25,989 nucleotides of DNA, taken from contig LJUY01000037.1 of the NCBI GenBank assembly GCA_001304015.1, positions 1-25,989 of the forward strand, in the 5' to 3' direction. Positions 1-25,570 of this stretch are shown here, one piece after another. The position numbers and the translations under genes are program-made. The DNA is from a candidate division Zixibacteria bacterium SM23_81. Its GTDB lineage: Bacteria > SM23-81. The notes below the pieces were generated by a model that saw nothing but the letters and a program-made list of their open reading frames with translations, was not told the DNA's origin and did no database searches. How positions within the stretch are numbered: position 1 is the first letter of the stretch; every line of letters starts with the position of its first letter.

Positions 1-199
1 CGGTGGCCACAGAATAAGAACGACTACCCGGCAAAAAATGAAACAACGGCTTCTTCTCTATAGGATCAATGTGAACGGCACAGGGATTGCCATACACCAG
101 GGTCTGAAGTTTCCCGTCAAGGTGAATGCGCACCCGGCAATCCCCCCGCTGGCCCTCTGCCAGCAGGCACTCCCGGGGACAGAGCAAACATTTAATCAT
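1..199 (-). CDS. amrS: AmmeMemoRadiSam system radical SAM enzyme, 5' end only (cut by window edge)
   Basis: The first 66 codons on the minus strand begin MIKCLLCPRECLLAEG and include GQRGDCRVR, LVYGNPCAVHIDPIEKKP and FHFLPGSRSYS. This is the conserved amino end of the radical SAM protein of the AmmeMemoRadiSam family, formerly annotated as a pyruvate formate-lyase activating enzyme homologue. The DPIEKKPLFHFLPG block is the family signature. The CxxxCxxC cluster motif would lie beyond the window edge, so catalytic residues cannot be checked. The ATG at 199 is chosen because the family starts a few residues before the CLLCPREC motif; no clear Shine-Dalgarno precedes it. Family membership is seen in sequence; the substrate of this enzyme class is not established. 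It lies downstream of Memo and AMMECR1 genes on the same strand, which supports the assignment, but a 513-base gap separates it from the nearest of them, so it may have its own promoter. Confidence 0.88.
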   Translation of the reverse strand, partial: MIKCLLCPRECLLAEGQRGDCRVRIHLDGKLQTLVYGNPCAVHIDPIEKKPLFHFLPGSRSYSVAT

Positions 200-296
200 G
201 GAAGACTTTATGGATTAAGATGATGAATCATGGAAAAAAACATGACGGAAAAATACATATGGAACGACAAGGAAAAAAACTGAAACTACTCTGAAT
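197..296 (-). repeat. Imperfect tandem duplication, copy next to amrS start
   Basis: This AT-rich stretch immediately upstream of amrS, including its ATG, matches 434-530 at an offset of 234-237 bases. Shared blocks include ATTCAG, AGTTTCAGTTTTT, TCATGTTTTTTTCCATGATT and the ATG itself. I estimate roughly three quarters identity by eye. On the minus strand it is rich in TTCCATG-like words. It forms the presumed 5' untranslated leader of amrS. Confidence 0.75.
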
Positions 297-309
297 CTCT
301 GGCTCTTTC

Positions 310-436
310 CCGAATTATAGACCGGCGCAATATACTATGTCCGAACCGCTTTGCTCCTAAGACATGCGAACTAGACAACCTTCCCCTGACCCTTGGGAAG
401 TCTGCACACCTGAGGTCAGAGCACACATCGAACCAT
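310..436 (-). pseudogene. Decayed duplicate of the amrS 5' coding end
   Basis: Reading the minus strand from ATG at 436 gives MVRCVL*PQVCRLPKGQG, which aligns with MIKCLLCPRECLLAEGQRG of the real amrS start. The first 24 bases from the shared TGT codon (427-404) differ at only five positions. The copy is interrupted by TGA where amrS has Cys7, then by TAG codons, and similarity fades near the position matching YGNPCA (~codon 40). With the repeats at 434-530 and 197-296 this shows a tandem duplication of about 235 bases covering the leader and the first ~40 to 46 codons. It cannot encode a working protein. Confidence 0.6.
314..343 (-). promoter_or_regulatory. Candidate sigma70-type promoter for amrS
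   Basis: On the minus strand a perfect -10 TATAAT (319-314) is preceded after 18 bases by CGGACA (343-338), which matches the last four bases of the -35 consensus. Transcription would start near 307 and give a leader of about 108 bases before the amrS ATG at 199. The site lies inside the decayed duplicate of amrS coding sequence. Confidence 0.45.
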
Positions 437-530
437 GGAAAAGTTCATGAACAAGACAATGAATCATGGAAAAAAACATGATGGAAGAAAACATGTGGAA
501 CAACATGGAAAAACTGAAACTGCGCTGAAT
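434..530 (-). repeat. Imperfect tandem duplication, distal copy
   Basis: This is the second copy of the element at 197-296, placed upstream of the decayed amrS 5' end. It carries the same order of TTCCATG-like words and ends at an ATG that corresponds to the amrS start codon. The remainder of the gene-free stretch (about 531-690) shows no coding signal or known motif. Confidence 0.75.
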
Positions 531-691
531 TCTCAGAACCTTTCACTTGAGGCTCCGCCATAAGCTTGCATGGCTAAAAACCGCTTCCTTCCAAAGAGCC
601 TGAAGCTTCCCAGCCGCGCTGATGTGAACCGGAAAATCTCCACCCCCCCAACCCTCCAGCAATTGGTGTTCTCAAGGCCAGAACTAAATTG

Positions 692-713
692 GTCGATGGC
701 GGAGGCCATCGAC
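692..713 (-). terminator. Stem-loop at the end of the small membrane-protein gene
   Basis: Arms GTCGATGGC and GCCATCGAC pair perfectly over nine bases around a GGAG loop and overlap the stop codon at 713. No T-run follows on the minus strand (CCAATTTAG), so this is a weak intrinsic terminator or an mRNA-end stabilising hairpin. Confidence 0.4.
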
Positions 714-943
714 TACTTCTCCTCCCAGCCATCCGGCAAGACTCGATAGTAGCGGGCCTCCCTGGGTTCCAGCCCAGCCTCCTGGATGGCCCTCTTTATC
801 TTGGCCACATCGACCTGGGGCACGTGGGGCTGCTCCCCAGGAAGGAGGTTGACGCCCCAGGTCATCACAATAAGAAGCCAGGTCACACACAGCAGAACCA
901 GAGGGGCAATGTCACTTCGTCGCAAACCTTTTTTCATCGGCAC
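713..943 (-). CDS. Small single-pass membrane protein of unknown function (76 aa)
   Basis: I do not recognise this protein. It has a basic start (MPMKKGLRRSD), one hydrophobic segment at about residues 12-34, and a polar tail containing VDVAKIKRAIQEAG and YRVLPDGWEEK, which would face outside if the positive-inside rule holds. The GTG at 943 is preferred because GAGG sits nine bases upstream; an in-frame ATG at 937 is possible. It begins six bases after the uridine kinase stop codon, so it is almost certainly cotranslated with the upstream operon. Translational coupling, a clean membrane segment and lack of competing frames argue that it is real. A small accessory of the nearby flavin/Fe-S membrane protein is one possibility, but nothing in the sequence proves it. 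Confidence 0.65.
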   Translation of the reverse strand: MPMKKGLRRSDIAPLVLLCVTWLLIVMTWGVNLLPGEQPHVPQVDVAKIKRAIQEAGLEPREARYYRVLPDGWEEK

Positions 944-949
944 ATCCGC

Positions 950-1576
950 CTACCTCATGTCAGCCAGTAGAGTTCTGATCTTGGCAACGACCATGTCGAT
1001 GGCCACCTTATTCCAGCCTCCCTCTGGGATGATCACATCGGCGTATCTCTTGGAAGGCTCCACGAACTCCAAGTGCATGGGCCTGACCGAGCCCAAGTAC
1101 TGCTCGATGACGCTTTCGAAGGTGCGACCCCGGTCGAGGATATCCCGCCTCAGACGGCGGATAAGCCGGACATCCGGATCGGTATCGACGTACAGCTTCA
1201 CGTCCAGCATGTCGCGCAGGCCCTCGTCCTCCAAAACCATGATCCCCTCCAGGATGGTAACCGGCTTGGAGGGCACCTTTCCCGGCAGCATTCTGCGAGT
1301 GTGAGTAACATAGTCGTAGCTCAACATTGGCACATCCTTGCCCGCCTTGAGTTTTCGGAGATGTTTAACCAACAGGCTGATATCGAAAGAGGAGGGATGA
1401 TCGTAATTGATCTTCTCCCGTTCCTCCAAAGGCAAATTGTTCCGATCCTGATAATAGGCATCCAGAGGTATCACCACGACGTTGTCCGTTCCGATCTGCT
1501 CGATGATTTTCTCGGCGATGGTCGTCTTGCCGGAACCAGTACCTCCCGCAATGCCGATGGAAATAGATGTGGCCAT
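950..1576 (-). CDS. udk: Uridine kinase
   Basis: The protein phosphorylates uridine and cytidine to UMP and CMP in pyrimidine salvage. The 208-residue product has a P-loop GGTGSGKT at residues 11-18, the DAYYQDRNNLP segment after the first strand, NYDHPSSFD, and the VTILEGIMVLED stretch, all typical of the uridine kinase branch of the phosphoribulokinase/uridine kinase family. Length is normal. The ATG at 1576 is chosen because GAGGTG lies just upstream (spacing three to five bases); an in-frame GTG at 1582 overlaps that ribosome site. It sits between the flavin/Fe-S membrane protein and the small membrane protein in the same operon. There is no obvious metabolic reason for salvage to be here, so the link may be only cotranscription. 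Confidence 0.93.
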   Translation of the reverse strand: MATSISIGIAGGTGSGKTTIAEKIIEQIGTDNVVVIPLDAYYQDRNNLPLEEREKINYDHPSSFDISLLVKHLRKLKAGKDVPMLSYDYVTHTRRMLPGKVPSKPVTILEGIMVLEDEGLRDMLDVKLYVDTDPDVRLIRRLRRDILDRGRTFESVIEQYLGSVRPMHLEFVEPSKRYADVIIPEGGWNKVAIDMVVAKIRTLLADMR

Positions 1577-1608
1577 AATCACCTCAATGTGCTAAAAGCA
1601 TTCTGACC

Positions 1609-2820
1609 TCAGAAATCACCCACCATCTCCACGCTCTCCGAGCGCTCGCACCGCTTTCTCCTCAATCCCAGCTTGCCCAGCAGATGCAGGGCCATACCCA
1701 CCACACAGAAATAGCGGCACCAAAATCGATCGATGACCACAGAGGCTGCCAGGATGAGAATCAGAGAGGCCCACATCAAGTGAGTGCCCCTCAGGCTAAA
1801 GGCCATGGCAAAGGGCTCATACCGGAGCACCTCCTGGCTGCCGCTGAGGATCACCAGACAGATCACCAACCACAACAGCAAGGTTCGCAGACGGCTGGCC
1901 GTTCTATGCAGGGCGGGGGAGAGACGCAGGCGATAGGGAACCAGTTTCTTGAGGAACTCCTGCAGGGCGCCAAAGGGACAGAGCCAGCCGCAATAGATTC
2001 TTCCCACCATCAGTGCCGTCACCACCCCGAAGAACAACAGAAGGTACCAGGGGGCATGAACGGGAAATGGCGGAAACCGTAAGTTGATGATATTGACCAA
2101 GTGCACCACCGAAAGGGAGCCGTTTAGATAGAAGCCCACGATGCCCAGGCTCAAGATCAGGCTGACGACGCGCAAACCCCTCTTTCTCCGCCAAAAAGCC
2201 GCCAGACTCAAGGACATCAACGCCAGGAGTGCCCCCCCCTCCAGCCACCACCTATGCACCACAGAGACACCTTCCCTCTGGGCCTGAGTGGTACGCAGCA
2301 AGGCGGGCATCGCTATGGCCAGGCCTTCTCTTATGCCCCTGGCTACGGCCCTGGAGGAGATGGTCGCTCCGGAAAGGCCGTCCAGATCCTGTCCCATCAC
2401 CAGAATATCTTCCACCCCTTTTCCCACAAACTGCTCTGTAAACCACGATTCCTGAAATCCCTCTACGAAGAAGGGGGTTTCAGCGTGCTCCCCGATTTCC
2501 ACGCCCACCAGGTGTCCGGAGAGGTCCAAGCCCACCAGAATGTGGATCAGACCGCCATATCCTCTCACCTGCGGTACGATCTCGGCGGTGTCAAAGCAGT
2601 ACCCGACGAGCTGGGCATCGCCCGTCTGCCAATTTCTGGCTAAGGCCTGATAGTGGGGAAGGGGCTCTGTCTGGGGAAGGAAACGTTCCGCTTGGGGAAA
2701 AACGGCCTTCAGGAACTCCAACTCCCGCCCGCCCTCACCCCTGTGGAGATTGCGGACGGCAAGGTTGGCGACGATGAGGAATGCACCACTTATGAGAAGA
2801 AATTTATCCAAGCCCCTCAA
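1609..2820 (-). CDS. Membrane FMN-binding / 4Fe-4S redox protein, NosR/NapH/RnfG-like
   Basis: This 403-residue protein joins an RnfG-like FMN-binding domain to a NapH/NosR-like membrane domain. An N-terminal membrane segment (about 7-22) is followed by the flavin domain with DGLSGATIS at 147-155, the motif in which a Ser/Thr carries covalently bound FMN in RnfG, NqrC and NosR. About four to five membrane helices follow (roughly 195-380), with CGWLCPFGA at 277-285 and CRYFCVVGMA at 368-377. NosR and NapH normally have CxxxCP twice plus a ferredoxin tail; here the second motif lacks the proline and the protein ends at RKRCERSESVEMVGDF without ferredoxin cysteines. Family topology places the flavin domain outside the cytoplasmic membrane. 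Start is TTG at 2820, ten bases after GGGAG and just past the AMMECR1 stop. The role is inferred as electron transfer across or along the membrane; its partner is unknown. Confidence 0.8.
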   Translation of the reverse strand: MRGLDKFLLISGAFLIVANLAVRNLHRGEGGRELEFLKAVFPQAERFLPQTEPLPHYQALARNWQTGDAQLVGYCFDTAEIVPQVRGYGGLIHILVGLDLSGHLVGVEIGEHAETPFFVEGFQESWFTEQFVGKGVEDILVMGQDLDGLSGATISSRAVARGIREGLAIAMPALLRTTQAQREGVSVVHRWWLEGGALLALMSLSLAAFWRRKRGLRVVSLILSLGIVGFYLNGSLSVVHLVNIINLRFPPFPVHAPWYLLLFFGVVTALMVGRIYCGWLCPFGALQEFLKKLVPYRLRLSPALHRTASRLRTLLLWLVICLVILSGSQEVLRYEPFAMAFSLRGTHLMWASLILILAASVVIDRFWCRYFCVVGMALHLLGKLGLRRKRCERSESVEMVGDF

Positions 2821-2834
2821 AGAGGTTGAGCTCC

Positions 2835-3416
2835 CTACTCGCTGAATATATCCGCTGAAAAGACGAAAAGTTCACACTGCGGATCCTGCCAAGCCTCCGG
2901 GGGTAAGCCAGCTTTCAAACAGGTCTGTTGGAGAAAGCTGGTCCGGTCCCAACCGTACTCCGTGGCAACCTGAGGCAACAGCAGGCCTGACTGCGAACCC
3001 CGAACGATGTAGATGCCATGTGTTCCCACCTGAATTTCAGAGACTTCACGAATCTTATGTAAAGGCGTCAACACGGAGATCTCCAACTTCAGGTCCTGCA
3101 GTTCTTCGGGAGAAACGGGTGGAAACCTGGGGTCTTGAAAGGCTGCCGCCTCGGCCATCTCTGCGACGGCCAAATACAGAGGCTTGATCCCCTGGATATA
3201 GCCGATGCAGCCTCGAAGAGCACTCCCCTTGTGGAGGGTCACGAAGAGACCCCTTTCTTCCTTTAAGCTCTCCGACGATACTTGAAAAGCAGGGATTTCC
3301 TTGCTCTGGACCCTTCGTTCGATCACGCTCCGAGCGATGCGCAGGAGCTGTCTTTTCTCCTCCACGCTCAAACCAGAGTGCCCACCAGCGTCTCGGGGGG
3401 CTTTGACTTCACCCAC
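2835..3416 (-). CDS. amrA: AMMECR1-domain protein (AmmeMemoRadiSam system protein A)
   Basis: The 193-residue protein is a stand-alone AMMECR1 domain. It shows the signature LRGCIG at 67-72, then AAAFQDPRFPPVSPEEL, LEISVLTPL and GTHGIYIVRGSQSGLLLPQVA, all family hallmarks. The conserved Cys of LRGCIG is a plausible functional residue, but the activity of the family is not established. The GTG at 3416 is the only start codon after an in-frame TGA that lies three codons upstream; GGGGAG directly precedes it, closer than ideal, so an internal start a few codons later is possible. It follows Memo by 98 bases and is followed by the flavin/Fe-S membrane protein after 14 bases. A second AMMECR1 domain is fused to Memo further upstream in the same operon. 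Confidence 0.9.
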   Translation of the reverse strand: MGEVKAPRDAGGHSGLSVEEKRQLLRIARSVIERRVQSKEIPAFQVSSESLKEERGLFVTLHKGSALRGCIGYIQGIKPLYLAVAEMAEAAAFQDPRFPPVSPEELQDLKLEISVLTPLHKIREVSEIQVGTHGIYIVRGSQSGLLLPQVATEYGWDRTSFLQQTCLKAGLPPEAWQDPQCELFVFSADIFSE

Positions 3417-3514
3417 CTCCCCTCATTTTCTCCCGTTCGCATGCCAAATCGGCTTTTCCGGTTTAAAGTCTATGGACATAGTTAATGTCAATGACCCGTG
3501 GCCTGATGGTGTAT

Positions 3515-4384
3515 TCACGCTCCAGCGCCAGGCCTTCCCGGTCCGAACACGGCCGCCGCCATGTAACCGACCACCTGGCCCCGATCCCCCGTCACATCGC
3601 CCGAGTTGGCATATTTCAGGACCTTGGCGCCTCTGGCGCCAAGCTTTTCGGCGGCCAGCATGGCTGCGACCATGGGACCGCCGCCACAGGCCTCACTTTC
3701 CCTGCTCTGCAGAGCCCGGTAAAGCCTCAGGGGCTCAAAGGCGTTCACGGCCTCCAGAATGGTTCCGTCTAGCTTCACGGCCCACTCGTAGGGATGGTAA
3801 TGGGATAAATCGGAGCTGGCCACAATAAGCACCTTCTCCTCTCCCAGAGAAGAGGCGATGGCCTCGGCCAGGGACTGGCAGGTGGGCAGACTCTGATCGC
3901 CCATGACGATGGGCACCAACTCGAAATCCTTCAGGATGTGCTGCAAAAAGGGAAGCTGCACCTCCAGCGAATGCTCCATGGAGTGGGCTTGGGGATAAAA
4001 GTTAAGCTTCTCACTACGGGTGATAATGGCTGAAGATAACTCTGAATTAACGGGAATTACCCCCAGTGGGGTTTGGTAGCCCCCTTGTTCATAAACCGAG
4101 GCGCCCACGAAAGAGACGTGATGGCTGGGAGCTATGACGACAACCGTCTTGAAAGGTGTATCCTTAACCTGTGCATAGGCATACGCCGCGATTTGGCCGG
4201 AATACATATACCCGGCATGGGGGGCAATCAAAGCTATAATCTCACCAGGCAGTTCCTCTTTTTGCACCGCCTCCAGAAAGCCTTCTATGTGGCTGGTCAA
4301 GAGCTCAGGGTCGTCTGAGTAAAACTGCCCGGCCACCACGGGCTTGCGTATCTCTTCAGGAGGAATGGATGTGGGAGAGCTCAT
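3515..4384 (-). CDS. amrB: Memo-like protein (AmmeMemoRadiSam system protein B), cytoplasmic copy
   Basis: The 289-residue protein spans a full Memo domain. It carries VRKP-like IRKPVVAGQFYSDD, APHAGYMYSG (His56), APSHH (His88), EHSLEVQLPFL (137-147), SSDLSHY (190-196), CGGGP (Cys233) and KYANSGDV. His56, His88 and Cys233 correspond to human MEMO1 His49, His81 and Cys244, the metal-binding trio in that protein. No signal peptide or membrane segment is visible, so it should be cytoplasmic. ATG at 4384 has GGGAG six bases upstream. The family is structurally related to extradiol dioxygenases, but its bacterial reaction is unproven. It lies 41 bases downstream of a fused paralogue. Confidence 0.92.
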   Translation of the reverse strand: MSSPTSIPPEEIRKPVVAGQFYSDDPELLTSHIEGFLEAVQKEELPGEIIALIAPHAGYMYSGQIAAYAYAQVKDTPFKTVVVIAPSHHVSFVGASVYEQGGYQTPLGVIPVNSELSSAIITRSEKLNFYPQAHSMEHSLEVQLPFLQHILKDFELVPIVMGDQSLPTCQSLAEAIASSLGEEKVLIVASSDLSHYHPYEWAVKLDGTILEAVNAFEPLRLYRALQSRESEACGGGPMVAAMLAAEKLGARGAKVLKYANSGDVTGDRGQVVGYMAAAVFGPGRPGAGA

Positions 4385-4425
4385 CGGTATCTCCCTTCTG
4401 CCCGAAAAATCCCAGCGCGCCCAGC

Positions 4426-4980
4426 CTAGTCCTCATGGAAAACCTGGGCGGTAAAGGTGTAGATTGTGGTGCCCTCTTGGAGATAGGCGTCCTTGGGGAG
4501 GAAGGCTTTATCCTGGCAGCAATGTTCCAGAAATTCCTGCTTGGACCAGCCTGTCTCAGTGGCCACCTGAGGCAGAAAACAGCCGCTTTGGCCTCCCCGG
4601 GTGATCCAAATGCCATGTGTGCCCAGCTGGATCTCATCGACGCTGCTGATCTCCTTCAGGGGTGACAGCACCGAAATCTCGATTTCGATTTCATTCAACT
4701 CTGAAGAGGAAACAGGAGGAAAGCGCCGATCGGAAAAGGCTGCCGCCTGAGCCATCTGGGCCACCGTTTGGCAGAGAGGGATGTCTGGCTGGAACCTCCC
4801 GATACAGCCACGCAGTTGTCCCTTTTTGTGGAGGGTCACAAAGCTGCCTCGCCTCTCATTCAACTTCGGATAAGAACTTTCCGGTGGTAAATGTTGCTTC
4901 CCCTCAAGTTTCTGCTCAATTGCCATCCGCGCGATCTTCAAAAGCTCCCTTTGCTCCTGGAGGTTTAATTCCTCACTCAC
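4426..4980 (-). promoter_or_regulatory. Possible internal translation start releasing the AMMECR1 part of the fusion
   Basis: In the linker of the fusion, AAGGAG (4992-4987) is followed by an in-frame ATG at 4986 and an in-frame GTG at 4980; the GTG is six bases from GGAG, an ideal distance. Starting there would give a 184-residue AMMECR1 domain, close to the 193 residues of the separate copy. It is either a relic of a once separate gene or a working internal start. Confidence 0.4.
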
Positions 4981-5973
4981 AATCATCTCCTTCCCAGATA
5001 TTTCACCGCCCCTCTGGTAAAAAGCCACCGCACAGTAGCCCACCACTCTGTTGCGATCGCCGATGGGCACATCGCCCGAGTTGGCGTATTTGAGGACCTC
5101 GACCTCATCCGCGCCCAACGCTTTGGCAGCCATCATGGTCACCATCACCGCATCCAGACCACACAGGGTGCACGACAGGTCGGGAATGTCCTCCTTGAGC
5201 CAGCGGGCTTCATTCTGGGCCACGGCCTGGGGTGAAAAACTCTCTATGGCCCTCAGAGTTCCCTTGTCCACACGGCAAGCCGCATCATAGGAAGGATAGT
5301 GAGACATGTCCGTGCTGGCCACGAGAAGAACCTCTCCGTCTCCCTGAGCCACCTGAGCAACGGTCCCAGCCAAAGCCTCCAGCTCCTCAGAGGAACATCG
5401 CGGACCAAGCACTATAGGCAAAATGCGAAAATCACCCAAAACCCTCTGCAGAAACGGCAGCTGCACCTCCAGGGAGTGTTCGGCCATATGGGCCTGGGGC
5501 ACGTGGCGAAGTCCTTTGTTTAAAGACATCATCTCCCTGGCCATCTTCACGTTCACGGAAACGCGCCCCAGGGGGGTCTCATAGGCCCCTCCGTCGTAAA
5601 GGGAGGCGCCCGAAAAGAGAGCTCGATGGCTGGGTCCTATCAGGATCACCGTGTCGAAGGTTTTCCCCTGGATCTGCTTATAGGCATAGGCAGCCACTTG
5701 GCCTGAGTAAACATACCCGGCATGTGGGGCCACCAGCGCGACGAGGCGACCAGGCACTGGCTGTTGGGGCACATTGGCCAGAAAGCGATCTGCCTGTTGC
5801 GCCAACGCTTGGGGGTTATCCGGGTAGAACGCCCCTGCAACCGCTGGTTTGCGAACCTCAGTTGAGGACTTCATCTCGTCGGTCTTGGCCTTCTGCTGAC
5901 AACGCCCTCCCGTGGATATCACAAGCAGGGCGCCGCAGATGGCGACGATCTGGTGAACTGGATGTCTTCTCAT
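4426..5973 (-). CDS. Exported or membrane-anchored Memo-AMMECR1 fusion protein
   Basis: This 515-residue protein joins both cytoplasm-type components in one chain. Residues 1-25 (basic MRRHPVHQ then a hydrophobic stretch ending STGGRC) look like a signal peptide or anchor; the -1 Arg argues against a standard lipobox and no AxA site is seen, so an uncleaved anchor is likely. Memo occupies about 40-317 with APHAGYVYSG (His84), GPSHR (His116), EHSLEVQLPFL, STDMSHY and LCGLDAV (Cys271). AMMECR1 occupies about 335-510 with LRGCIG at 387-392 and RRFPPVSSSEL. The linker contains SGKEMIVSEE. ATG at 5973 has GGGAGG five bases upstream; longer starts at 5976 (GTG) and 5994 (TTG) overlap that site. The domain order repeats the order of the two separate genes downstream, which suggests duplication of the pair and then fusion. 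Extracytoplasmic location is inference. Confidence 0.9.
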   Translation of the reverse strand: MRRHPVHQIVAICGALLVISTGGRCQQKAKTDEMKSSTEVRKPAVAGAFYPDNPQALAQQADRFLANVPQQPVPGRLVALVAPHAGYVYSGQVAAYAYKQIQGKTFDTVILIGPSHRALFSGASLYDGGAYETPLGRVSVNVKMAREMMSLNKGLRHVPQAHMAEHSLEVQLPFLQRVLGDFRILPIVLGPRCSSEELEALAGTVAQVAQGDGEVLLVASTDMSHYPSYDAACRVDKGTLRAIESFSPQAVAQNEARWLKEDIPDLSCTLCGLDAVMVTMMAAKALGADEVEVLKYANSGDVPIGDRNRVVGYCAVAFYQRGGEISGKEMIVSEELNLQEQRELLKIARMAIEQKLEGKQHLPPESSYPKLNERRGSFVTLHKKGQLRGCIGRFQPDIPLCQTVAQMAQAAAFSDRRFPPVSSSELNEIEIEISVLSPLKEISSVDEIQLGTHGIWITRGGQSGCFLPQVATETGWSKQEFLEHCCQDKAFLPKDAYLQEGTTIYTFTAQVFHED

Positions 5974-15809: not shown

Positions 15810-18620
15810 TCAGCGCAGCAGAACCATCCGCCTGGTTTCTCGAAACTGCCCAGCCTGCAGTCGACAAAAGTAGACGCCCGATCCCACATGGGCTCCACCG
15901 CTGTCTCTGCCATCCCATGTCACCCGGTGCTCCCCAACTTCATAGAACCCGCGGGCTAGGGTGGTCACCCTCTGCCCCAGGATGTTGTAGATCTCCAAGG
16001 TGAGCTGACCCTTCTCCGGTAGGGAAAAGCGAATTTGGGTCTCGGCGTTGAAAGGATTGGGATAGTTCTGCGACAGAGCGTATTGCCGAGGAGGCGCTGC
16101 ATGTCTCGAGTTATCTTCTATGCTCGTGCTGATGTTGTCGCCAAAGTAGCCTGTCCTGCGGCAATTACCCCGATACATAGGCCAGGGCATCTGCGAGCCC
16201 GCCGCCGATTTATAATCCCAGATAGAAAGGCCCGACGGGGTCCCCAGGGCGATTTCGAAATCTCCATCTTCGTCCAAGTCGACGATGGCGGCAGAAGAAA
16301 AAATTGCCCCCAAAGGCGGCGTGGGATATTCTTCCAGGAGAGATCCATCCCCAGCGAGAATATACAGCTTCTCTGCGGCAGTCCCGAAAATCACCTCTGG
16401 CAGGTTGTCGCCGTCTAGATCCACGATGGCCGGAGATGATTCGATGAAACCCTCGGCCTGAAATGGCCAGCCGGAAATCACGTCACCCCCGCCCTCCACT
16501 GCGTAGACCTTCCCGTTCTTGGAGGTGAAGACGATGTCCAGGTGATCATCGCCGTCAACATCTCCGATGGCCGGCGATGAGCGCACCATATGGCCACTGG
16601 AGAAGGCGAATTGGAGGCCACCCAAATGGTCGATGACGTAAAGAAATCCGTCATCGCAGCCGATGGCGATCTCTTTATGGCCGTCCTCATCGAGATCGGC
16701 CAGAGACGGCGCGGATACGACCATGCCGCCAGTGATCAGGGGAAATCCCGGGAGCGACTGACCATCGCTGGAGGAGATGGCGTGGACCTTTTTATCCACA
16801 TCTCCAATAACGATGTCCAAGGCGCCGTCAGCATCTAGATGGGCCACAGCGGGGGCGGCGAAAGTGGCTCCGCCCAAGCTGACCGGAAAGGGTCCGTAAT
16901 CGGTGCCGTCATCCTGAAGCACATATAAATAACCATCCAGAGCCCCCACGATGGTTTCCAGATGACCGTTGCCATCCAGATCGGACAAGGCGGGGGTGGA
17001 CAGCACGGCTCCCCCCACTCCTCTGGCGAAGAGGCGGGAGCCAGAGCTGGTGAAGGCATACACCGTGTCATTGCTGCTGGCGAAGACGATCTCCAGGTGC
17101 CCATCGCCGTCCACATCTCCCACCGCCGCAGAACCCCAAACGCTTCCAGAGACATCCACTGGAAAGCCGGGCTCCTCTTGGCCCAGCCGATCCCACACGT
17201 GAAGGGAGCCCAGATAATCGACGGCCAACACCTCCATTGCCGCATCTCCGTCCAAGTTCATGACCAGAGGTGAAGAGCGCACGGTGGTGCCCACATCCAC
17301 CGGCCAGCCGCGCTGATCGTAGGTCACATGGAGATTGAAATCCAAGGCGATAGTATAGGTCCCGGCGTTCGCCGAGACATCTAGGAACAGAGGGATCTCA
17401 GCCACACCTATGTCTTCGTCCACGCTAAGGCTGAACTCATCGCTTGTATTCCAGGCGATCTGGCCCGAAAGGATGGTCCCCTGGAAAGTGGCCAAGCTGT
17501 CTAAAATTGTGATCCGTGGATCGAAACAGGAGAGAGTCGCGGACACGTCCGTGGCTTGGTCCCAGGACTGTTGATTTTGGAGGCTGACCTGCAACCGAGC
17601 CGTCTCTCCAGGATTCAGAACCCCATCGCCATCACCCTGGATGTCCTCAACGGCGTATTCGTGAAACTTTAAACTGGGGTATTCGGCGGGCTCGGGAACG
17701 ACCCAAGCCACGTAGGACTCTATTTCGCTCTCGTTGGTGCCCTTGCGGATGCGAAACCAGCCCCCTTCCCCCCAGTCGGCCCCCCAACTGTTTTTACAGA
17801 TCCAGCTGCCTTCCTCGTCGTCCCATCCAACGATCGCGACGATGTGCCCTCCCGCCACCACATCTGTGGTGCGCTCATACACACCGGAGGAATATCCAAA
17901 GAAATCGTTGTATACCAGCAGGTAGGCAGCTAAGGGGCTGCTCAAAAGTGCATTCTTGATGGCAGTCTCCGAATACGGGGTGACCAGTCCCCAATTGGAA
18001 AGTTTTCTTGCCCTCATCTGCCAGTCCCCACAGGTTTCACCGCAGGGGGCGCCGGACGAGTTGTCCATGGCCCGATAGGGATAGCAATCCTCATCGGGGG
18101 CACCCTGCGACGTGAGGAAATTTAAGCAAGGTGCGACACTCCAGCCATACTCACAGCTTCCTCCTCCGCATGAGAAGATGTGCTGCTCCGAGAGATCGAA
18201 GGTTGGCTCTGGTGCCCCGAAATAAATGCTGATGGAGGCCTCAAACGCGGCCATACAGCCAAATGCCACGCAACTACCGCAGCCGGCCTGATCCCTGACG
18301 GAGGTGGTCCAATTATGCTCATCGTAGTCTCGCCAGTCCAGTCTGGTGAGACTGGCGGCCTGAGGAAAGAATAAGGGTGGAGATTTGATATCCCCGGGGT
18401 CAGGAACGGGACGCTGAGCGCCGCACAAACGCCGCCGCTCCTCTGGCGAAAGCCTTAAAACGGAGGTCTCTCTAGCTTCCCACTGAGCTCCTTTCTCCAC
18501 AATGGCCCGCTGTATCTCCTCTAATGTGAGGACATCCTCGGCCTGAGCAAGGGCAGCCCAGGCTACCAGCAGCAACAGCATACTCCACACAAGAATACAA
18601 GTTCGCAGCAATTCTCTCAT
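15810..18620 (-). CDS. Secreted papain-like (C1) cysteine protease with FG-GAP/VCBS-type propeller and FlgD-like C-terminal tail
   Basis: The 936-residue protein has a signal peptide with an AQA site at residue 27. The C1 domain shows Gln111 and Cys117 in DQAGCGSC, His259 in GGHIVAIVGWDD and Asn277 in CKNSWG, the full papain catalytic set with correct Gln-Cys spacing. Six or more extra cysteines suggest disulfides. A CARDB-like segment (about 325-435) is followed by eight repeats of about 45 residues with acidic D.DGDG.LEI cores (about 435-830), probably one beta-propeller. The last ~85 residues hold QNYPNPFNAETQIRF, IYNILGQRV and GSGVYFCRL, the FlgD-like/type IX-like tail used for surface attachment or secretion in FCB and related phyla. 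ATG at 18620 has GAGGAG six bases upstream. It is monocistronic, ending in a strong terminator. Substrate is unknown. Confidence 0.9.
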   Translation of the reverse strand: MRELLRTCILVWSMLLLLVAWAALAQAEDVLTLEEIQRAIVEKGAQWEARETSVLRLSPEERRRLCGAQRPVPDPGDIKSPPLFFPQAASLTRLDWRDYDEHNWTTSVRDQAGCGSCVAFGCMAAFEASISIYFGAPEPTFDLSEQHIFSCGGGSCEYGWSVAPCLNFLTSQGAPDEDCYPYRAMDNSSGAPCGETCGDWQMRARKLSNWGLVTPYSETAIKNALLSSPLAAYLLVYNDFFGYSSGVYERTTDVVAGGHIVAIVGWDDEEGSWICKNSWGADWGEGGWFRIRKGTNESEIESYVAWVVPEPAEYPSLKFHEYAVEDIQGDGDGVLNPGETARLQVSLQNQQSWDQATDVSATLSCFDPRITILDSLATFQGTILSGQIAWNTSDEFSLSVDEDIGVAEIPLFLDVSANAGTYTIALDFNLHVTYDQRGWPVDVGTTVRSSPLVMNLDGDAAMEVLAVDYLGSLHVWDRLGQEEPGFPVDVSGSVWGSAAVGDVDGDGHLEIVFASSNDTVYAFTSSGSRLFARGVGGAVLSTPALSDLDGNGHLETIVGALDGYLYVLQDDGTDYGPFPVSLGGATFAAPAVAHLDADGALDIVIGDVDKKVHAISSSDGQSLPGFPLITGGMVVSAPSLADLDEDGHKEIAIGCDDGFLYVIDHLGGLQFAFSSGHMVRSSPAIGDVDGDDHLDIVFTSKNGKVYAVEGGGDVISGWPFQAEGFIESSPAIVDLDGDNLPEVIFGTAAEKLYILAGDGSLLEEYPTPPLGAIFSSAAIVDLDEDGDFEIALGTPSGLSIWDYKSAAGSQMPWPMYRGNCRRTGYFGDNISTSIEDNSRHAAPPRQYALSQNYPNPFNAETQIRFSLPEKGQLTLEIYNILGQRVTTLARGFYEVGEHRVTWDGRDSGGAHVGSGVYFCRLQAGQFRETRRMVLLR

Positions 18621-22753: not shown

Positions 22754-22858
22754 GAAGATAAACGACCTTAGTTCTGAGCAATGGATAAAAGAGGTACCGA
22801 TTCATCGAGTTCAGTGCTCTCTTGTTTCATAACTCTCAATCCAAAAGGAGGTTCTACC

Positions 22859-25570
22859 ATGAAAGCGACTGCTTTTGTGACTATGATGGTGATGGCTTTG
22901 CTGTCGACAGCAGCGTCTGCCGGTGTGCCCGGTCTGATCAGTTACCAGGGCACATTGACCGACGGAGATGGTGTGGCCCTGGATACCACCGTGGCCATGA
23001 CCTTCAGCATCTACACGGATTCTGTTGGTGGGAGTCAAATCTGGACGGAGACGCAGTCGGCCGTGGCAGTTGTCAGTGGCGTGTTCAATGTCCTTTTGGG
23101 CAGCGTCAATGAGATGGCCGACACGGTGTTCAGCGATCCTGTACGCTGGCTGGGCGTTCAGGTAGGATCGGATCCCGAGCTGGCCCCCCGGCAGCGGATC
23201 GCGGCGTTGGGATATGCCTTCCGGGCAGCCAAAGCCGATACGGCAGAATACGCCCAAAGTGATGGCGGTGGCTGGGTGGACGACGGCACAGTCCTTCGAC
23301 TTGAGACGGACACCGATTCTGTGGGCATCGGGACAACCAGCCCAGCGGCCAAACTGGATGTGCGCGGAACCTTCAACGTGGGCGTCAACGACAGCGGCTA
23401 TAACGTGAACTTCTACGGGCAGTACAGTGGAAGTCGCCTGTTTTGGGACGAGAACAAGATGGCCCTCAGGGCTGGCTGGGACTACGACGGCAGCCACTGG
23501 GCTCCGGCAAACGTGGGCTCGAGATCCTTCGCTGTGGGATATAACCCCATGGCCAGCGGAACCGCCTCAATCGCTATGGGTGCCCTCACCACGGCCAATG
23601 CCAACTATGCCACTGCCATGGGCTATCAAACCCTGGCCAGCAATCTCTACGCCACCGCCATGGGACAAAACACCACCGCCAGCGGTCCTTTTTCAATGGC
23701 CATGGGGACAGAGACAGTTGCCAGCGGGGGCGCTTCGATAGCCACCGGATTGTTGACAACGGCCAGCGCGGACCTGGCCATAGCCATGGGAGATCGCACC
23801 ACCGCCAGCGGTAACTACTCGCTGGCCATGGGTCAGTATCTCACGGCAGGGCCGGGGGCCAACACCATGATCTTGGGCCGGGGGATGAGCAACTCCAACC
23901 GCCTGGTCAACAACATCGCCAACTCCCTCATGGTCGGTTTCAACGATACTACGGCCACCCTGTTCGTGGGCGGACCGGATTCCCGCGTGGGCGTTGGGAC
24001 CAGCAGCCCTTCTGAGAAGCTGCATGTCCATGGGAACATTCGAGCCGAAAACGCTTATCTGATCGGGGCATCACCGGTGTTCTCCATCGCGGGCACAGAA
24101 AACCTTCTGGTGGGCGCCGCTGCCGGGGCCAGCAACACCGGTGAGTATGGCACCTTCGTGGGGCATTATGCCGGACAGGACAATCAGGGAAACTTCAATA
24201 CCTTCCTGGGGCTGTCTGCCGGCACCTCCAATCTCACGGGCTCTAAGAACACCTTTGTAGGTCAAGGAGCGGGCTACAATAATACCACCGGCTTTGAGAA
24301 CACCTTCTTGGGACAGGTGACGGGTCTGTCGAATACCTCGGGAAGCTGCAACACGTTTCTGGGAAAATCCGCCGGCTACCAAAATGCCACCGGAGACAGC
24401 AACGTCTTCATAGGCTATAAAGCGGGTTACACCGAGATTGGTTCCAACAAGCTCTATATCGCCAATGGCTCCGACACCAGCGATGTGCTGGTGTATGGTG
24501 ATTTCTCCTCTGGAAAGGTGGGCATCGGGACCCTCAGCCCCTCCTCAAGGCTGCACGTGGACGGGGCCATTCGGTTGGGCGCCGGAGAGCGCGATTTTCA
24601 GGTCCAGGAGGTGGAGCCCGGCGATCCGTCGGGTTGGTCGGCCCTGATCGATTATGGAGGCATCGGCATTGGCAGCGAGACCGGCAATAACCATCAGATG
24701 ATCATGTTCACCGATGGGGCCGGCTCTGAGGACATCTTCACCGTGGCCACCAGCGAGAACAACGGCAGCACCTGGGAGGCGGACTTCGTCATCCAGCAAA
24801 ACGGCCGAGTGGGTATCGGAACAGCCAGTCCGTCAAGCAAGCTCGATGTTAGCGGCGACATCAGTACCGATGCCCTTTATAAAATAGGGGGAAACGCGGT
24901 ACTATCGGTGTCGAGCCCCATGAACACCATGGTGGGTGTCGGGGCGGGAGGAAACAATACCGGATATTACACAACTTTTGTGGGAGACAGCACCGGGTAT
25001 AATAACCAAGGCTATCAGAACACATTCTTAGGAGCCTGGGCAGGCCGCTCTAACACCACGGGCGACTACAACACATTCTTAGGATACGCGGCGGGCTACA
25101 GCCACGACCAAGGCCCTTGGAATACATTCATAGGATCTTTCGCAGGACAATTAAACACAACAGGTTGGAGGAACACGTTCTTAGGAGCACGTGCAGGTGT
25201 GACCAGCACTTCAGACACCGGCAACGTCTTTATCGGTTTTGAAGCCGGACAAAACCTGACGGGCTCCGATCAACTGTGCATCGCGAATAGTGCAGGTAAT
25301 TGCTTAATTTATGGTGATTTCTCAACTCGCTATGTGGGCTTCGGAACGACCAATCCAACAAGCAAAGTGCAAGTCATTGGAAATGTTGACGCACAAGGTT
25401 TCACCATCAGCGGTGTGCCTGTGGGAACCTCTAGCGATTCATACTGGTCAGCAAGTGGTGGTGACATCTACTACAATTCTGGCAATGTAGGAATCGGAAC
25501 CAGCAGTCCTGAGGTACCGCTTCACGTACAGGGCGGTACCTCCATATCAACAGGAACGGCGGAGATGTGA
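22859..25570 (+). CDS. Large secreted fibre-like protein with YadA-head-like and NTFLG-type repeats (frameshifted at its end)
   Basis: From ATG at 22859 (AAAGGAGG seven bases upstream) the frame gives 903 residues. A signal peptide ends near STAASA. A conserved N-terminal domain follows (SYQGTLTDGDG, MTFSIYTDS, WTETQ, GVFNVLLGS, RWLGVQVGSD, AALGYAFRA), common in secreted proteins of candidate phyla. About eight 14-residue repeats of the type AMG..T.A.SG.Y (DNA about 23540-23870) resemble the YadA/Hep_Hag left-handed roll. Two blocks of NTFLG..AG..NTTG repeats (about 24100-24430 and 24900-25260) alternate with six VGIGT..P..KLHV.G motifs. The frame stops at TGA 25568-25570, but the coding pattern carries on in the -1 frame. 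It is probably a trimeric or fibrous surface appendage. The 3' part uses more A/T-ending codons than the 5' part. Confidence 0.85.
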   Translation: MKATAFVTMMVMALLSTAASAGVPGLISYQGTLTDGDGVALDTTVAMTFSIYTDSVGGSQIWTETQSAVAVVSGVFNVLLGSVNEMADTVFSDPVRWLGVQVGSDPELAPRQRIAALGYAFRAAKADTAEYAQSDGGGWVDDGTVLRLETDTDSVGIGTTSPAAKLDVRGTFNVGVNDSGYNVNFYGQYSGSRLFWDENKMALRAGWDYDGSHWAPANVGSRSFAVGYNPMASGTASIAMGALTTANANYATAMGYQTLASNLYATAMGQNTTASGPFSMAMGTETVASGGASIATGLLTTASADLAIAMGDRTTASGNYSLAMGQYLTAGPGANTMILGRGMSNSNRLVNNIANSLMVGFNDTTATLFVGGPDSRVGVGTSSPSEKLHVHGNIRAENAYLIGASPVFSIAGTENLLVGAAAGASNTGEYGTFVGHYAGQDNQGNFNTFLGLSAGTSNLTGSKNTFVGQGAGYNNTTGFENTFLGQVTGLSNTSGSCNTFLGKSAGYQNATGDSNVFIGYKAGYTEIGSNKLYIANGSDTSDVLVYGDFSSGKVGIGTLSPSSRLHVDGAIRLGAGERDFQVQEVEPGDPSGWSALIDYGGIGIGSETGNNHQMIMFTDGAGSEDIFTVATSENNGSTWEADFVIQQNGRVGIGTASPSSKLDVSGDISTDALYKIGGNAVLSVSSPMNTMVGVGAGGNNTGYYTTFVGDSTGYNNQGYQNTFLGAWAGRSNTTGDYNTFLGYAAGYSHDQGPWNTFIGSFAGQLNTTGWRNTFLGARAGVTSTSDTGNVFIGFEAGQNLTGSDQLCIANSAGNCLIYGDFSTRYVGFGTTNPTSKVQVIGNVDAQGFTISGVPVGTSSDSYWSASGGDIYYNSGNVGIGTSSPEVPLHVQGGTSISTGTAEM

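Follow-up and report, generated by a model that had tools for sequence, protein, structure and literature searches.

Fused, export-signalled Memo–AMMECR1 proteins suggest an extracytoplasmic branch of the AmmeMemoRadiSam system

Introduction

Memo and AMMECR1 are protein families conserved from bacteria to humans, and neither has an agreed biochemical function. Radical S-adenosylmethionine (SAM) chemistry is normally thought to be strictly intracellular. AMMECR1, Memo and a radical SAM partner make up the AmmeMemoRadiSam system (TIGR04335, TIGR04336 and TIGR04337; genes amrA, amrB and amrS), whose family names are silent on export and within which the fused proteins of Segatella and Ideonella already bear the plain annotation amrB. 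The same three families occur in a stretch of candidate division Zixibacteria bacterium SM23_81 (contig LJUY01000037.1, assembly GCA_001304015.1), all 25,989 nucleotides of which were analyzed here and are referred to as the window. Unlike the described system, that of the window is duplicated, with an export signal on a fused copy, and its relatives add a twin-arginine translocation (Tat) signal on the radical SAM enzyme AmrS and a Tat-signalled DUF362 protein. The surprise is that several phyla appear to export fused Memo–AMMECR1, often together with the radical SAM enzyme.

The same gene partnership appears in the Memo–AMMECR1 systems of Burroughs et al. 2019, which PMC7159879 cites. The exported form is undescribed in the literature searched (AmmeMemoRadiSam, Tat with radical SAM, DUF362 with radical SAM), a search whose coverage did not extend to Burroughs et al. 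2019, the most relevant source. The fusion also shares its fold and metal ligands with human MEMO1 (7KQ8, 3BCZ) and the LigB-type extradiol dioxygenases. MEMO1 is a stand-alone human protein, whereas the window fusion is joined to AMMECR1 and predicted to be exported.

A fusion with a predicted export signal

Profile matches place the components of the system as follows.

4426-5973, minus strand: Memo–AMMECR1 fusion with an N-terminal signal or membrane segment, 515 amino acids (residues 1-36 signal region, about 41-318 Memo, 343-512 AMMECR1); TIGR04336 270 bits and TIGR04335 184 bits
3515-4384, minus strand: separate leaderless Memo (AmmeMemoRadiSam protein B); TIGR04336 299 bits
2835-3416, minus strand: separate leaderless AMMECR1 (AmmeMemoRadiSam protein A); TIGR04335 192 bits
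1-199, minus strand: 5' part of amrS, the radical SAM enzyme; TIGR04337 positions 12-76, 71 bits

Both Memo domains exceed the TIGR04336 cut-off (299 and 270 against 26 bits) and both AMMECR1 domains that of TIGR04335 (192 and 184 against 99 bits); for TIGR04337, the threshold is 220 bits together with a CxxxCxxC motif. These matches bear out the doubling, with one pair fused, that a first-pass annotation of the window had proposed, and its gene names and positions are right; all these genes lie on the minus strand. The two Memo genes of the window are the only ones in the genome. A duplicated AmmeMemoRadiSam system, with a cytoplasmic Memo and AMMECR1 beside a predicted extracytoplasmic fusion, is well supported.

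The fusion begins MRRHPVHQIVAICGALLVISTGGRCQQ, and its N-terminal residues, MRRHPVHQIVAICGALLVISTGGRC, are hydrophobic and form a helix at residues 5-36 in the AlphaFold model. A comparable segment is absent from the separate Memo and AMMECR1, as the first-pass annotation had noticed. G003, a genome of the same family as the window, has a corresponding segment, in frame and downstream of a non-ATG start, and fusions of the other family of the phylum have MRQTIFTIGFLALFVIGLRC and MKQITFIIGFLALLALGPSC; the hydrophobic segment and its cysteine are therefore conserved within the phylum. Judged by hydropathy and motifs, as were all export signals here, the fusion is probably exported by the general secretory (Sec) pathway and retained on the outer side of the membrane.

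The AlphaFold model of the fusion has two confident domains (mean predicted local distance difference test score 92.6), whose mutual arrangement is unsure (predicted template modelling score 0.63). Among PDB structures the model most resembles MEMO1 and AMMECR1 proteins of archaea, with 1vaj one of the matches. Across 65 fused and 23 single copies, Memo residues H84, H116, D222, H225 and C271 are invariant, so the fusion keeps every Memo metal ligand, with MEMO1 counterparts H49, H81, D189, H192 and C244 (MEMO1 ligands from PMC11081632). H84 and H116 align directly with H49 and H81; C271 is the only invariant cysteine of the Memo domain, and its equivalence to C244 is taken from that invariance. 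These conserved ligands, together with the export signals, suggest that the fusion is most likely a non-heme iron protein of the cell envelope with a His2-Cys site in a LigB-type fold.

Spread and phylogeny

Fusions of this exported type recur in six or more lineages of bacteria, among them the phylum of the window, a KSB1-type phylum, a further phylum around G013, Patescibacteria, Endomicrobia and Bacteroidota. A hydrophobic N-terminus is present in 60 of 61 complete fused open reading frames (ORFs), the sole exception having its hydrophobic segment behind a non-ATG start, against 2 of 23 complete single copies. Among the 82 genomes of the KSB1-type phylum, the fusion directly adjoins amrS in 44 (43 genomes chosen for this adjacency, plus G011). 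The median gap in adjacent pairs is 19 bp, and every fusion in the 45 adjacent pairs has a hydrophobic N-terminus. The relatives' genomes are drafts, so absences are provisional; with that proviso, no Memo other than the exported fusion was found in five patescibacterial genomes.

Fused copies group apart from single copies in both the Memo and the AMMECR1 trees that the first-pass annotation had called for, and the window's separate Memo groups mostly with single copies (Memo tree, 89% support in the Shimodaira–Hasegawa-like approximate likelihood-ratio test, SH-aLRT). The fused copies do not form one strict clade: a strict single origin was not recovered, the Memo tree holding nine label changes, some of them caused by truncated loci that had been given the single-copy label. 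We take the exported branch to be a recurrent variant of long standing.

Several further Memo-related loci were seen. G017 encodes Memo and AMMECR1 unfused, each with its own hydrophobic N-terminus (L198, L027), and has a Tat-like AmrS; as far as these N-termini indicate, it is an unfused exported version. The KSB1-type phylum also holds a third, distant Memo-like family with frames of about 390-490 amino acids (E ~1e-30; for example G048:C20:5632-6525). An unannotated phage contig from human faeces (MT836786.1:3903-4697) encodes a Memo 39% identical to the window's separate copy.

Tat-signalled AmrS

Where amrS adjoins the fusion and its start is complete, the encoded protein has a Tat motif and then a hydrophobic stretch in 39 of 40 cases; in the 40th, ISRRQFLRQ lies in frame upstream of the chosen start. 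These enzymes fall within an AmrS clade of 52 rows (SH-aLRT 92), comprising 49 Tat-type sequences, two truncated ones and one with an alternative start. The clade has residues of its own (Y41, K173, V212, Y213, W232, F245), and CxxxCxxC is kept in all Tat-signalled AmrS proteins. Dozens of genomes encode a Tat-signalled AmrS directly beside the fusion and a second, cytoplasmic AmrS.

In the sister-family genomes G001 and G002, a Tat-signalled amrS occupies the place syntenic with the window amrS, and their order hsp20-lon-memo-x-udk-Tat-amrS matches that of the window. All 34 non-patescibacterial genomes tested have TatC, among them each one that encodes a Tat-signalled AmrS; it was found in none of 10 patescibacterial genomes, drafts in which the absence is provisional; patescibacterial AmrS is leaderless. 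The idea of an extracytoplasmic branch thus gains support and proves wider than first guessed, since many genomes, those of the sister family among them, encode an AmrS that is itself Tat-signalled. Judged from these signals, a whole system working outside the cytoplasm would fit only some lineages.

The gene cluster of the window

On the minus strand, the cluster reads hsp20, lon, fusion, separate Memo, separate AMMECR1, a membrane protein with flavin mononucleotide (FMN) and iron–sulfur (Fe-S) domains, udk and the start of amrS. The remaining features are these.

8889-8458, minus strand: hsp20
8411-6018, minus strand: lon
1609-2820, minus strand: membrane FMN_bind/Fer4_5 protein, 403 amino acids; PF04205 45.3 bits, PF12801 58 bits
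950-1582, minus strand: uridine kinase udk, between the FMN protein and amrS; NF004018 285 bits
713-937, minus strand: 74-amino-acid ORF with a membrane anchor and the first AmrS-core residues, probably the detached N-terminus of amrS
167-530: degenerate direct repeat (copies 530-404 and 296-167; 130 bp, 80% identical), in and at the edge of the amrS interruption

The interval from memo to udk, filled by AMMECR1 and the FMN protein in the window, holds an M23 peptidoglycan peptidase (L042, L043) in G001 and G002.

The window amrS runs for 66 codons before the contig ends at window base 1, ahead of CxxxCxxC, and its 71 bits against a cut-off of 220 come from a fragment that stops short of this motif. 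Two further amrS genes above the cut-off lie elsewhere in the genome. The 66 codons are 70% identical to the Tat-signalled AmrS of G001 (L031), and position 41, the one subfamily-specific site covered, is a cytoplasmic-type leucine. Upstream, the last residues of the 74-amino-acid ORF, REARYYRVLPD, are those with which the AmrS core opens in Tat-type relatives, and the detached N-terminus carries LRRSDI in place of the consensus Tat motif. About 513 bp with stops and the degenerate 130-bp repeat separate this ORF from the ATG at 199; within this spacer (200-712), both repeat copies contain the amrS-core start, one of them degenerate. A terminator-like hairpin follows the ORF, such sites being at chance level in the region.

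The interrupting DNA is single-copy in the genome, which rules out a repeated mobile element. A fragment on contig C79 (L040) was rejected as the missing 3' half of the gene: it overlaps the C12 amrS (40 of 41 residues) and resembles rtcB-linked cytoplasmic amrS. Gene decay, a genuine insertion or misassembly close to the contig end may lie behind the interruption, and the exported AmrS may be broken in the window genome.

Elsewhere in the window, 15810-18620 encodes a protease of the papain family that carries FG-GAP repeats and finishes in a Por_Secre_tail-like region, which suggests secretion and type IX-like sorting, and 22781-25570 encodes a 929-amino-acid protein containing YadA-head repeats together with numerous motifs that recur in similar form.

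Flavin and redox neighbors

The FMN/Fe-S protein combines an RnfG-like FMN domain with a NapH/NosR-like Fe-S membrane part containing two Fer4_5 stretches. Hydropathy and positive-inside charges predict that the FMN domain faces outside, in agreement with the first-pass annotation. Its PF04205 match (45.3 bits) clears the gathering score of 22, and a SGATI flavinylation motif lies at residue 150. The protein scores 93.5 bits with the NosR model NF046105 (cut-off 1000) and 51 bits with the RnfG model TIGR01947 (cut-off 102). It has in common with NosR, RnfG and NapH an FMN_bind domain and a NapH-type Fer4_5 membrane part; unlike them, it is a 403-residue protein far under the curated cut-offs, and it is unlinked to AmmeMemoRadiSam elsewhere.

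Other flavin and redox genes lie beside the amrS–fusion pair in the relatives, namely FMN_bind at 3 loci, ApbE at 8 and nitroreductase at 4. A DUF362 protein, mostly Tat-signalled, adjoins the pair or the fusion at 30 loci in two phyla. Its place is taken in one subgroup by NfeD, SPFH, either an FMN_bind lipoprotein or a nitroreductase, polyprenyl synthetase and ApbE. Flavin chemistry near the exported branch is recurrent and not universal.

Discussion

The genes, sequence signals, conserved catalytic residues, operon conservation and co-distribution with TatC described above are direct observations. The explanation that we favor, and hold to be fairly probable as a whole, is an extracytoplasmic AmmeMemoRadiSam branch in which an exported iron protein acts on an envelope substrate and, where AmrS is exported too, shares its compartment with that enzyme. 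The fusion would be exported by Sec and probably kept at the outer face of the membrane. In many genomes, AmrS would be folded and loaded with its cluster before export through Tat, the route also predicted for the DUF362 protein. Outside, the fusion would act as an iron protein on a membrane or cell-envelope substrate, with AmrS, where exported, acting in the same compartment. Electrons would be supplied across the membrane by flavin carriers, in the window plausibly the FMN/Fe-S protein. We infer, rather than observe, actual export, iron content, substrate and electron path, and likewise a Tat-signalled AmrS working beside the fusion with flavin-delivered electrons. More tentative, and to us possible rather than probable, is that radical SAM chemistry itself runs outside the cytoplasm with an exported iron protein, trans-membrane flavin electrons and either an unknown supply of SAM or an alternative co-substrate, in which case the window operon would be a derived member.

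Several points weigh against the favored explanation. We know of no source of SAM outside the cytoplasm. In Ideonella the fusion has no signal, and fusion alone therefore does not imply export. In Segatella (Bacteroidota) the fusion has a signal-like start and the adjacent amrS is leaderless, and Patescibacteria likewise pair an exported fusion with a leaderless AmrS; because of these pairings, AmrS need not act outside. The Ideonella and Segatella combinations also make fusion, Memo–AMMECR1 export and AmrS export separable. The window amrS is interrupted in the assembly, since the 74-amino-acid ORF is separated from the rest of the gene. The window fusion has GGRC in place of a canonical lipobox, a cysteine at this position being shared with G001-G003. 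A full-length relative of the FMN/Fe-S protein is absent from the other three genomes of the phylum, and in 82 genomes of another phylum its relatives are never on contigs beside amrS and the fusion.

The leaderless AmrS of Segatella and Patescibacteria would suit a maturation model, in which AmrS completes its chemistry in the cytoplasm, the fusion binds a metal or the product, and the Tat signal on AmrS serves to export the finished complex. MEMO1 is compatible with such a role, as it binds iron or copper and has not been found to act as a dioxygenase (PMC11081632, PMC9477392). However, dozens of genomes retain, besides a cytoplasmic AmrS, a Tat-signalled one with intact CxxxCxxC beside the fusion, and we consider the model rather unlikely. 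An improbable reading is also that of the first-pass annotation, which cast the NosR/NapH-like FMN protein as the dedicated electron donor of the exported branch. Strand, cluster, the predicted outside position of the FMN domain and the SGAT motif speak for it, as do the other flavin genes that adjoin this branch in some members of another phylum. This coupling fails on co-occurrence: with no linked relative in the phylum or the 82 other genomes, the protein is rejected as a conserved partner, and G001 and G002 have the M23 peptidase between memo and udk instead.

The departure from a canonical lipobox, and the lack of a clear AxA site, would also allow the N-terminal segment of the window fusion to act as a membrane anchor that leaves the catalytic part facing the cytoplasm. 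This is very unlikely, as a short positive start followed by a single hydrophobic helix normally puts the remainder outside, and clear lipoboxes (LSAC, LTAC, LSGC) occupy the corresponding position in patescibacterial relatives. Least credible, and scarcely worth entertaining, is a set of ordinary cytoplasmic genes with a chance hydrophobic start on one copy; the signal-less Ideonella fusion fits it, but the hydrophobic starts of 60 of 61 fused ORFs, with Tat-signalled AmrS alongside, contradict it.

For the AmmeMemoRadiSam family, an exported version with its own conserved operon and partners (Tat-signalled AmrS, Tat-signalled DUF362 and flavin proteins) would narrow the possible substrates to the cell envelope. 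Some relatives pair an exported fusion with a leaderless AmrS, and the radical chemistry may take place in or outside the cytoplasm. The exported branch poses the question of whether radical SAM enzymes can work beyond the cytoplasm at all. The fusion of Segatella hominis has a signal-like start, and because this species is in culture, localization is directly testable there.

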